Positions 27,938 through 43,448 of a stretch of 45,833 bases of DNA are shown here, piece after piece. How positions within the stretch are numbered: position 1 is the first letter of the stretch; every line of letters starts with the position of its first letter. The notes beneath the pieces are model-generated. The model was given only the letters and a program-made list of their open reading frames with translations. It did not search any database and had not been told where the DNA came from. The stretch comes from Chromatiales bacterium (GTDB lineage Bacteria; Pseudomonadota; Gammaproteobacteria; Steroidobacterales; BM003): the NCBI GenBank assembly GCA_002868855.1, contig PKUM01000335.1:1-45833 (forward strand), in the 5' to 3' direction. Both the position numbers and the translations under genes were made by a program.

Positions 27938-28258
27938 ATGGACGAAGAATTCCTGCTCGTTCTCACTACCTGCCCCGATCCGGAATCCGCGCGGCGCCTC
28001 GCGACGAAAGCGGTAGAGGCGAAGCTTGCCGCCTGCGTTAATCAGCTTCCGGGTGTGAACTCGTTCTACTCGTGGGAAGGAAAATTGCAGCAAACTGTCG
28101 AGATCATGCTGCTGTTCAAGACCCGCAGACCGGCGTATGAGGCGCTCGAAGCACTGTTGCGGGACGAGCACCCTTACGAACTTCCCGAGATCATCGCGGT
28201 CCCTATCAACCACGGCTCCCCCGGATATCTGAAATGGATCGAAGACAACACAACCTAG
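27938..28258 (+). CDS. cutA: Divalent-cation tolerance protein CutA
   Basis: CutA is a small, very stable trimeric protein with a PII-like fold, linked to copper and divalent-metal tolerance; its biochemical role is unsettled. The 106-residue sequence has the family blocks LAACVNQLPG, SFYSWEGKLQ and HPYELPEIIAVPI. It lacks a signal peptide, so it is cytoplasmic here. It is divergent from groES and overlaps the dsbD start by 25 bp, matching the cutA-dsbD order of many gammaproteobacteria. Confidence 0.95.
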   Translation: MDEEFLLVLTTCPDPESARRLATKAVEAKLAACVNQLPGVNSFYSWEGKLQQTVEIMLLFKTRRPAYEALEALLRDEHPYELPEIIAVPINHGSPGYLKWIEDNTT

Positions 28259-30489
28259 CGAACGGCCGATATGGCCTGATCGGGTTCGCGCTATTCGGGA
28301 TACTGCTGCTCGCGGGTCCGGCGCTCGCAGCGCAGGACGAACCGTTGCGACCGGAACAGGCTTTCCCCTATGGGGTCGCGGCCGACGCCGAGACGATCGT
28401 CGTGACATTCGGGCTGGTCGACGGTTACTACCTCTACAAAAAGCGCTTCAGGTTCACCAGCCCCGACGGGCGTGTCAGTCTCGGCGATCCGCGTTTCCCG
28501 CGTGGCGAGATCCACGAGGACGAGTTCTTTGGAAAAATGGAGATCTTCCGCAACACGTTTGCGATCGAGATTCCCTACTCGGCACCGCCGGATCTGGATC
28601 GGCTCGAGCTGCAAATGCGGTTGCAGGGCTGCGCAGATATCGGCCTGTGCTATCCGCCGGACACCTGGACAACGGAGGTCGCGCTGCCCCAGCGAGCAGC
28701 ACCGGCAACACCGCCGCGATCCGACCTCGGCGCTATTCTCGGGGCCACGGGTGGCGCAACCGAAACCGCTTTTCTCCAGGCCGAAGAGGCATTTGTCGTC
28801 GATGCCATTCTGGCGGACCCCAACAACCTTTTGTTGCGCTGGACGATTGCCGACGGTTACTACCTTTACCGCGACAAACTCGCTGTCGCCACTGACAGCA
28901 CCCTTATCCAGCTGGCGGCCCCCGAACTCCCTCCCGGCAAACCCAAGACCGACGAGTACTTCGGCGCCACCGAGGTCTATTACGGATCGGTCGATGTTCG
29001 CGTCCCGTTCGCCCGCAGCGGGCCGGAAAGTGGCGATATCGTCCTGCGACTGGCGCTCCAGGGTTGTGCCGAGGACGGAATCTGCTACCCGCCGATGACC
29101 CGCGAGTTGCAGCTTTTTGTACCGGCGGTCGATGCTGTGCAGACCACCGGCACGACAACGCCGAACGTGCCACTGTCCGAACAGGACCGGCTGGCGAAAC
29201 TGATCGGCGAGGGAAACCTGCTGCTCGTCCTTTCCACGTTCTTCGGCATCGGCATCCTGCTTGCTTTCACGCCCTGCGTGCTGCCGATGATTCCGATCCT
29301 CTCGGGAATCATTGTCGGTCAGGGTGAAAATACCAGCACGGCCAAAGCCACGGCGCTGTCGTTTACCTATGTAATGGGCATGGCGCTGACCTATACCATC
29401 GCCGGGGCGCTGTTCGCGATGGCCGGGCAACAGGCGCAGGCCGTTTTCCAGCAACCGTGGATCATCGTGACCTTCAGCTTGTTGTTCGTGGCACTGGCGC
29501 TCAGCATGTTCGGCCTGTTCGAGCTGCAGATTCCGGCGGCGCTACAGACGCGGTTGAGCAACATGAGCAACCAGCGCCAGACCGGTACGTATCTGGGGAC
29601 ATTTGTCGTTGGTGCGCTGTCTGCACTGATCGTCAGCGCCTGCGTCGCCCCGCCGCTGGTTGCCGCGCTCGCCGTAATCGGCCAGGCTGGCGACGTGGTC
29701 CGGGGCGGACTTGCGCTGTTCGTCATGAGCCTCGGCATGGGTGCGCCGTTAATCGCGTTTGGCGCGTCGGCCGGCAAGATCCTGCCCAGGGCCGGAGGCT
29801 GGATGGAGCAGGTGAAAGCGTTTTTCGGCTTCCTGTTACTCGGCGTGGCGGTGTGGATGCTCGAACGCATTCTGCCGGGTGCCGTAATCATGTTGCTGTG
29901 GGCGCTCATGGCGGTAGCACTGGGAGTGTTTTTTGGTGCGCTCACCGCGTTACCCGGCTCCGCGAGCATCTGGCGCCAGCTGTCACGCGCGCTCGGCGTG
30001 GTCACCCTCGCCTACGGACTGTTGCTGCTGATCGGCCTGGCGGCGGGCGGGCGCGATCCGCTGCAGCCCCTGGCCGGGCTCCGTGGCACGGGCAGCGCAA
30101 CCAGCGAGCACGGTGTCGCTTTCACCCGCATCAAGACCTCGGCCGATCTCGACGCGCAACTGCGCGCAGCCGCGGCACGCAACCAGCCGGCCATGCTCGA
30201 CTTCTACGCGGACTGGTGCGTGTCGTGCAAGGAAATGGAGCGCTATACGTTTACCGATGGCGCGGTCCAGGATTCGCTGCGCGATGTTCTGCTTCTCCAG
30301 GCCGACGTTACTGACAACGATGATCGGGACCGCGAACTCCTGCAGAGATTCAATATCATTGGCCCCCCGACTATTGTTTTTTTCGATGCTAACGGCGCGC
30401 AGGTACGCGGGCGCGAGGTTGTCGGTTTCATGCCGGCAGAGGAATTCGCGGCTCATGTAAGCGCCGCCTACGGAGCTGTCTCTCGCTGA
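28234..30489 (+). CDS. dsbD: Thiol:disulfide interchange protein DsbD with two tandem alpha domains
   Basis: DsbD carries electrons from cytoplasmic thioredoxin across the inner membrane to periplasmic partners. After a signal peptide (GFALFGILLLAGPALAA) it has two consecutive N-terminal alpha-type domains. Each ends in the same redox motif: LQGCADIGLCYPP (Cys133, Cys139) and LQGCAEDGICYPP (Cys278, Cys284). The beta membrane domain follows, with Cys348 (TPCVLPM) and Cys470 (SACVAPP). The C-terminal thioredoxin-like gamma domain has DWCVSCKEME (Cys662, Cys665). At 751 residues it is about 150-180 longer than E. coli DsbD because of the extra alpha domain. It overlaps cutA upstream and shares one base with the tlpA-like gene downstream. 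Confidence 0.95.
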   Translation: MDRRQHNLANGRYGLIGFALFGILLLAGPALAAQDEPLRPEQAFPYGVAADAETIVVTFGLVDGYYLYKKRFRFTSPDGRVSLGDPRFPRGEIHEDEFFGKMEIFRNTFAIEIPYSAPPDLDRLELQMRLQGCADIGLCYPPDTWTTEVALPQRAAPATPPRSDLGAILGATGGATETAFLQAEEAFVVDAILADPNNLLLRWTIADGYYLYRDKLAVATDSTLIQLAAPELPPGKPKTDEYFGATEVYYGSVDVRVPFARSGPESGDIVLRLALQGCAEDGICYPPMTRELQLFVPAVDAVQTTGTTTPNVPLSEQDRLAKLIGEGNLLLVLSTFFGIGILLAFTPCVLPMIPILSGIIVGQGENTSTAKATALSFTYVMGMALTYTIAGALFAMAGQQAQAVFQQPWIIVTFSLLFVALALSMFGLFELQIPAALQTRLSNMSNQRQTGTYLGTFVVGALSALIVSACVAPPLVAALAVIGQAGDVVRGGLALFVMSLGMGAPLIAFGASAGKILPRAGGWMEQVKAFFGFLLLGVAVWMLERILPGAVIMLLWALMAVALGVFFGALTALPGSASIWRQLSRALGVVTLAYGLLLLIGLAAGGRDPLQPLAGLRGTGSATSEHGVAFTRIKTSADLDAQLRAAAARNQPAMLDFYADWCVSCKEMERYTFTDGAVQDSLRDVLLLQADVTDNDDRDRELLQRFNIIGPPTIVFFDANGAQVRGREVVGFMPAEEFAAHVSAAYGAVSR

Positions 30490-31103
30490 TGAACAAGAAA
30501 ATTCTGCTGATACTCGGCGCGGTTGCCGCGGCCGCTGTTTTCGCCTTCGTGTTTGCGAAGCGCGGTGCGGACACGCCGCCAGTGCAGCCCGGCCCGACAT
30601 TGTCCATGAGCGAACTTCGACCAATTTTTGCTCTAAGCGACAGCGACGGCATCGAACGCTCGATCAGCGAATGGGACGGCAGCGCGCTTGTCGTCAACTT
30701 CTGGGCAACCTGGTGCGCGCCGTGCCGGCGCGAGATTCCGTTGCTGAACGCGCTGCAGAGCGAATATGTCGACGCCGGAATCCAGGTCATTGGCGTGGCA
30801 GTGGATTTCCGCGAGGACGTGGTGGCGTTCCTGCAGGAAATTGCGGTGACCTACCCCGTGCTGATCGGCGAACAGGAAGCCATCGATGCGGCCGAGGCCT
30901 TCGGAATGGACTTCATCGGGTTGCCGTTGACCGCGTTTACCGACCACGCTGGGCGGGTCGTACACCTGCATTTAGGGGAAGTCCACCGCGAACAGGCGGA
31001 AATCGTCTTCGCGGCGATTGCCCGGTTGCGGGCCGGCGATATGCAACTGGCCGCGGCACGCCAGCAGATAAGCGAACAGATCCAGGCGACGGCATACCGC
31101 TAA
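30489..31103 (+). CDS. TlpA-like periplasmic thioredoxin, membrane anchored
   Basis: This 204-residue protein has an N-terminal membrane anchor (ILLILGAVAAAAVFAFVFA) and a TlpA/ResA-type thioredoxin fold with the redox motif NFWATWCAPCRREIPLL. The cis-Pro loop is present as LPLTAFTDHAG. Such proteins reduce disulfides in apocytochromes or metal-site proteins outside the cytoplasm, using electrons from DsbD or CcdA. Its ATG overlaps the dsbD stop by one base, so DsbD is the likely electron donor. The exact substrate is unknown. Confidence 0.9.
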   Translation: MNKKILLILGAVAAAAVFAFVFAKRGADTPPVQPGPTLSMSELRPIFALSDSDGIERSISEWDGSALVVNFWATWCAPCRREIPLLNALQSEYVDAGIQVIGVAVDFREDVVAFLQEIAVTYPVLIGEQEAIDAAEAFGMDFIGLPLTAFTDHAGRVVHLHLGEVHREQAEIVFAAIARLRAGDMQLAAARQQISEQIQATAYR

Positions 31104-43125: not shown

Positions 43126-43448
43126 AGATTCGTATCCAGAAATTCAGCCAATTGTTTCTTGTTCACCGCTCCGACTTTCTGCGCCTCTACGGCGCCATTC
43201 TTGAACAGCATGAGGGTCGGAATACCACGAATGCCGAACCTCGGCGGGGTATTCGGATTTTCGTCGATATTGATCTTGACCACCTTCAGGCGGCCGTCGT
43301 ATTCCTCGGCGATCTGATCGAGGATTGGCGCGATCATTTTGCACGGACCACACCATTCGGCCCAGAAATCGAGAAGTACCGGCTGATCCGAATTTATGAT
43401 GTCGGCATCAAATGCATCGTCGCTTGTATGAACGATTTTGGCGCTCAC
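43122..43448 (-). CDS. trxA: Thioredoxin 1
   Basis: Thioredoxin is the main cytoplasmic dithiol reductant and the electron donor of DsbD. The 108-residue protein has the active site [11 protein letters not shown], cis-Pro loop [11 protein letters not shown] and the C-terminal helix. The start is GTG 43446-43448 with GGAGG upstream. It is the first gene of a trxA-rho pair and is divergent from rhlB. Confidence 0.98.

Follow-up and report, generated by a model that had tools for sequence, protein, structure and literature searches.

The window, as we call the whole stretch of 45,833 nucleotides analysed here, encodes a DsbD with two consecutive alpha domains. Such tandem-alpha DsbDs are a common, apparently unstudied variant of a known machine, to which the window protein belongs.

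The dsbD gene and its two alpha domains

By every defining feature tested, the window protein is a DsbD, and it is predicted to reduce periplasmic partners with electrons from cytoplasmic thioredoxin. The curated full-length DsbD model NF001419 matched it in two stretches with 734 bits (cut-off 330). Exactly one alpha, as in E. coli, is not a defining feature of DsbD in our view. The window protein has two, and these were not counted against its membership because 33 of the 81 DsbD-matching genomes in a class-wide sample also have two. The features of the locus are as follows (all on the + strand):

27938 to 28258, +, cutA, overlapping the start of dsbD by 25 nt (Pfam CutA1, E 4e-37)
28234 to 30489, +, dsbD with two alpha domains, 751 aa (NCBIfam NF001419; Pfam DsbD_N twice, DsbD_TM, Thioredoxin_7)
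28234 to 28332, +, probable signal peptide, residues 1-33 (by eye from the sequence; residues 1-34 have pLDDT below 50)
28339 to 28692, +, alpha1, the distal DsbD_N, residues 36-153, with Cys133/Cys139 and cap loop DEFFG (103.0 bits; predicted model matches 6dps_F)
28630 to 28650, +, codons for C133-x5-C139, the cysteine pair of alpha1 (invariant, 58 of 58 aligned tandem proteins)
28693 to 28767, +, flexible linker between alpha1 and alpha2, residues 154-178 (pLDDT below 50 at residues 157-177)
28768 to 29124, +, alpha2, the membrane-proximal DsbD_N, residues 179-297, with Cys278/Cys284 and cap loop DEYFG (110.6 bits; predicted model matches 6dps_F)
29065 to 29085, +, codons of the alpha2 cysteine pair, C278-x5-C284 (invariant, 58 of 58)
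29179 to 30042, +, beta, transmembrane, residues 316-603, with Cys348 and Cys470 (DsbD_TM, E 4e-94; helices in the model; both Cys invariant, 58 of 58)
30112 to 30474, +, gamma, C-terminal thioredoxin domain, residues 627-747, WCVSC with Cys662/Cys665 (predicted model matches E. coli DsbD gamma 2fwe)
30489 to 31103, +, TlpA/ResA-like thioredoxin, WCAPC, likely membrane-anchored (anchor by eye; Pfam AhpC-TSA, Redoxin, Thioredoxin)

At the DNA level, DsbD_N was found twice, with 103.0 bits at 28333-28680 and 110.6 bits at 28765-29115 (cut-off 25). Aligned over 117 positions, the two alphas of the window share 31% identity (75.9 bits, E 1e-23), which is far beyond chance. The preliminary description had placed their cysteine pairs at residues 133/139 and 278/284 with CYPP at the end of each, and this agrees exactly with the translation and the Pfam matches; the motifs are GCADIGLCYPP and GCAEDGICYPP. 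The complete set of cysteines is 133, 139, 278, 284, 348, 470, 662, and 665, so that the protein has four pairs and nothing else.

An AlphaFold2 model of the whole protein was built from 58 aligned tandem proteins, namely the window protein and 57 of the 59 tandem named loci described below (two fragments were excluded). The mean pLDDT was 85.5, with both alphas mostly above 90, and the linkers around alpha2 were unordered, including residues 157-177. The alpha1 model matched Neisseria nDsbD (6dps_F; Z 17.8, rmsd 1.5, 115 aligned) and E. coli 1l6p (Z 16.4, rmsd 2.4, 119 aligned), and the gamma model matched E. coli 2fwe (Z 22.6, rmsd 1.1, 122 aligned). Since the structural-neighbour list of the whole model showed alpha1 and not alpha2, alpha2 was folded and searched alone. 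It reached a pLDDT of 94.6 and matched 6dps_F (Z 17.2, rmsd 1.7, 115 aligned) and 3pfu (Z 16.2, rmsd 2.1, 118 aligned); the first fold beyond DsbD and ScsB appeared only at Z 8.3. Each alpha is predicted with high confidence to have the nDsbD fold, and no copy lacks it in the models.

All eight cysteines were invariant in the 58 tandem proteins, the other 57 of which are 40-51% identical to the window protein. In the class sample, the alpha pair was intact in 31 of 31 first copies, 31 of 31 second copies, and 50 of 50 singles. The Tyr equivalent to E. coli Y42 was present in all 31 first and all 31 second copies, as was the Asp of the cap loop. One locus, L174, is absent from the class-sample counts, trees, and TlpA tallies, its core having scored under the threshold. 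Because both pairs are kept wherever they were counted (58 of 58; 31 of 31), both copies look active. The preliminary description had called both pairs competent in appearance, and the predicted folds and intact, invariant pairs are in line with it; both alphas are probably redox-active.

The spacing of the pair varies among the relatives. C-x6-C was seen in some alphas (L161, L166, L172, L173, and others) and C-x7-C in the second copy of L173, with CYPP kept. In three loci of one genus (L045, L054, L059), the first copy has GFCYVP in place of CYPP, and apart from this the genus keeps an intact tandem layout.

In the closest usable pair of genomes (G001 and G002), dN was 0.034 and dS 0.98 for alpha1, and dN was 0.113 and dS 0.66 for alpha2, i.e., dN/dS was about 0.03 and 0.17. 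Both alphas are under purifying selection in the closest relatives, alpha2 less strictly. The faster evolution of alpha2 in this pair would suit a protein in which one alpha is mainly structural, a spacer or docking arm with idle cysteines. However, with the cysteine pairs invariant in both copies in the two samples, we regard this explanation as very improbable.

According to PMC7347389, the cap loop of E. coli DsbD (D68-E69-F70-Y71-G72) shields the reduced thiols. Both cap loops of the window, DEFFG in alpha1 and DEYFG in alpha2, have an aromatic residue at the place of F70. In the class sample, an aromatic cap residue (F, Y, or W) was found in 23 of 31 first copies, 18 of 31 second copies, and 21 of 50 singles, and it was variable in all of them. 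In the named set, the equivalent of F70 was F or Y in 45 of 58 first copies, and the second copies had F in 11, Y in 10, and W in 3 of 58. Loss of the cap loop was considered as a mark of alpha2, and we did not rely on it since the class-sample singles vary too.

Distribution of the tandem layout and related proteins

The preliminary description had set the two alphas against the single one of E. coli DsbD. A DsbD_N search, counted by hand, gave two adjacent DsbD_N domains on a single contig for 46 of the 59 relatives, with the window's own genome among them. The alpha read-out of the relatives dropped L031, L038, and L049, for which the wrong open frame had been taken, and L062, which is ScsB-like. 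A profile of 26 tandem proteins (25 of the 40 fetched loci were used) was then searched over 96 genomes across the class at a threshold of 1e-60, and 81 genomes matched. The alignment started from the first alpha in 33 genomes and only from the second position in 46, with one genome showing both kinds of alignment; a further genome was cut by a contig end, and two were core-only. The rows of G151, G063, and the second match of G089 were left out of the locus set. These counts (46 of 59 relatives and 33 of 81 class genomes) reject rarity of the layout. About two in five of the DsbD-bearing genomes sampled in the class have two alphas, and the E. coli layout is not the sole usual one. No description of a two-alpha DsbD was found in the literature searched, a search outside which most subscription journals lay.

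Among the named loci, which are the best 80 of 593 and biased to the tandem query, 59 were tandem and 21 single. The tandem ones include Luteimonas, Lysobacter, Halochromatium, Rhabdochromatium, Methylomonas, Guyparkeria, and Hydrogenophilus. Tandem-alpha DsbDs occur in many Gammaproteobacteria and in some Beta/Hydrogenophilia. In another family, centred on G063, the tandem form was found in 0 of the 94 matching genomes (of 99), and this family was an uninformative choice. In a phylum sample of 100 genomes, 22 matched at 1e-60, and 4 of the matches started in the first alpha (the window, G067, G190, and G327). In G067, G190, and G327 the match covers just part of the DsbD core, and of these three the locus of G067 (L174) was read. 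The family and phylum samples speak against a general spread of the layout.

Compared with known systems, the window protein has in common with E. coli DsbD the alpha fold, the membrane and gamma domains, all redox pairs, and the 25-nt cutA overlap. The gene order cutA-dsbD is the same, whereas the domain search found one alpha in the K-12 protein, as the preliminary description had said, and two in the window. The overlap at 28234-28258 has the same length in K-12 although the proteins are distant. Neisseria meningitidis DsbD likewise shares the alpha fold, the membrane and gamma domains, and the redox pairs, and it has a single alpha. The tandem-alpha DsbDs of Luteimonas, Lysobacter, Halochromatium, Methylomonas, and Guyparkeria have the same layout and all pairs as in the window, and nothing essential differs. 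CcdA consists of the membrane domain alone, as described in PMC4460558, and has no alpha or gamma.

The N-terminal part of ScsB also resembles the window alphas. ScsB has a DsbD-like core, and residues 11-132 of the N-terminal domain of the Proteus mirabilis protein (6c29) align to the alpha2 model with Z 10.7. Across its two modules, ScsB is not known to have more than one redox site. These are reportedly two tandem immunoglobulin-type modules, in an account attributed to Furlong et al. (2018). In contrast, the modules of the window protein are both DsbD_N, each with its own cysteine pair. We ruled out that the window protein is an ScsB, since its core is DsbD-type, and a distinct ScsB-like gene is located elsewhere in the genome. 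The product of this gene (L062, contig C3:18300-21300) is another DsbD-like protein; it has a single DsbD_N, its core is distant from DsbD, and the ScsB domain 6c29 was the sole solved relative found for it. In addition, the protein encoded at L174:1941-4268 of G067 has two DsbD_N domains, each with its pair, followed by a membrane core that is divergent and matches DsbD_TM weakly (66 bits). Its LNLMPCVLPILSLK stretch looks ScsB-like, so L174, and perhaps G190 and G327 too, is a candidate for tandem alphas on another core.

History and divergence of the two copies

A tree of the core that both forms share (membrane and thioredoxin domains) requires at least 18 changes between tandem and single, of which 6 are forced by well-supported branches. 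Many lineages can thus do without the second alpha. The tree of the alpha domains was built from 128 columns after nine long-branch singles had been removed, and only 2 of its branches were starred. In this tree, 25 of 31 first copies had the first copy of another protein as nearest neighbour, and 19 of 31 second copies had another second copy. Just 1 of the 62 copies was nearest to the partner copy of its own protein, and 29 of 41 singles were closer to a second copy. For most proteins, the sequences suggest that the two copies split early and have stayed apart as lineages. This grouping is a tendency because the tree is short of columns; the tree cannot date the duplication or settle gain versus loss. 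The results suggest that the alpha was duplicated once or a few times long ago and that one copy was lost repeatedly afterwards, perhaps with a more recent event in L168. In this locus (G149), the two alphas read alike, and the close sister L202 (G126) has a single alpha, which points to a recent duplication, conversion, or loss.

The first and second copies differ systematically in sequence. In the class sample, 10 of 124 aligned positions separated the first from the second copies beyond all 500 within-protein swaps, and 8 of these 10 recurred in the named set (0 of 1000 swaps), although such tests are inflated by relatedness and the two sets may overlap in kinds of organism. Position 106 (window numbering) is mostly Arg in first copies and His or Tyr in second copies. 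Position 130, which precedes Q-G-C, is Ser or Tyr in first copies versus Tyr or Phe in second copies, and the window has Leu in both. Position 136, within the C-x5-C loop, also separates the copies. In the sequence, these three positions, which are not the whole set, lie close to the cap loop or to the cysteines.

Several of these results would also be expected if the alphas were interchangeable and only raised the rate or the robustness of reduction toward the same partners. On the core tree, changes between tandem and single are frequent, the same catalytic residues are kept in both copies, the copies of L168 look near-duplicate, and one copy in the domain tree is nearest to its own partner. 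However, separate lineages in most proteins and systematic differences are unexpected under simple redundancy, and we consider this explanation possible and rather unlikely.

A stronger proposal is that there are two anciently separated and functionally distinct alpha types. The membrane-proximal type would be the alpha of most singles, and the distal type would have its own conserved residues (106, 130, and 136) beside the active site. One reductase would then serve two dedicated partner sets, and outlets would be gained and lost with the domains. We put this forward tentatively and give it somewhat less than an even chance.

Electron flow and candidate partners

In DsbD, electrons pass from cytoplasmic thioredoxin to beta, then to gamma, then to alpha, and from there to several periplasmic proteins, as given in PMC4460558. 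In a DsbD with one alpha site, that site has to serve several unrelated periplasmic partners, and how it does so is a standing question in the field. The tandem DsbDs are a natural split of this site in two, with many single-alpha sisters as controls, so that deleting the pairs singly could probe partner choice.

For the window protein, an inner-membrane DsbD with two parallel outlets from one gamma, whose partner preferences have drifted apart, is the reading we favour, at about an even chance. Cytoplasmic thioredoxin would reduce Cys348/Cys470 of the membrane domain, which would pass electrons to Cys662/Cys665 of the gamma thioredoxin domain. Gamma would then reduce either alpha1 (Cys133/139) or alpha2 (Cys278/284), and we infer direct transfer to both. 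The alphas would act in parallel on flexible tethers, each of them reducing periplasmic thioredoxin-fold partners such as the co-encoded TlpA, CcmG, and DsbC, and their partner preferences would differ. Parallel outlets with preferences of their own are favoured because the copies appear to be old and separate and differ at the same positions in two samples. The scheme draws support from sequence and model, namely the domain order, both predicted folds, the four conserved pairs, the apparent ancient separateness, and the presence of partner genes. That the protein may serve two sets of partners had already been suggested in the preliminary description, and it fits the separate divergence of the copies.

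The conservation of the cysteines is compatible with parallel and serial flow alike. In a serial relay, gamma would reduce alpha2, alpha2 would reduce alpha1, and alpha1 would deliver to partners further out. The chain order and the flexible linker permit it, and the singles resemble alpha2 more often (29 of 41), as if alpha1 were an extension. However, the solved complexes 1vrs, 1jzd, and 1z5y have alpha meeting thioredoxin-fold partners, and two capped active sites would both need opening. To our knowledge, no electron exchange between alphas is known. An alpha-to-alpha relay, also raised in the preliminary description, found no support here, and we consider it improbable because the known structures pair the alpha active site with thioredoxin folds.

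Beside the parallel outlets, we examined the TlpA-like gene as a reason for the second alpha. Its start lies inside the dsbD stop codon (TGATG at 30487-30491). Its nearest solved relatives by sequence are ResA 4nmu and TlpA 1jfu, and it scored below every curated NCBIfam cut-off. Among cutA-linked loci, a TlpA gene was downstream in 20 of 25 tandem and 13 of 21 single cases (Fisher p 0.20). Over all loci with enough sequence, the counts were 20 of 30 versus 17 of 48 (Fisher p 0.010), a difference that may just mirror which loci are the classical dsbD locus. Among the named loci (the best 80 of 593) with enough sequence, TlpA followed the tandem gene in 38 of 54 cases and the single gene in 16 of 19. 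Thus, TlpA does not explain the second alpha because it also follows single-alpha DsbDs, and the named and cutA-linked loci show no link specific to the tandem form. The preliminary description had called TlpA a natural partner; the coupled operon neighbour is real, but it is not specific to the tandem form, and TlpA is likely a partner of DsbD in general.

The window's genome also encodes DsbC and CcmG (169.5 bits, above the cut-off). In addition, the - strand of the window has a DsbE/TlpA-type match at 43260-43436 that is weak (33.4 bits, under the cut-off) and falls in a 127-aa frame, which may encode a further periplasmic thioredoxin.
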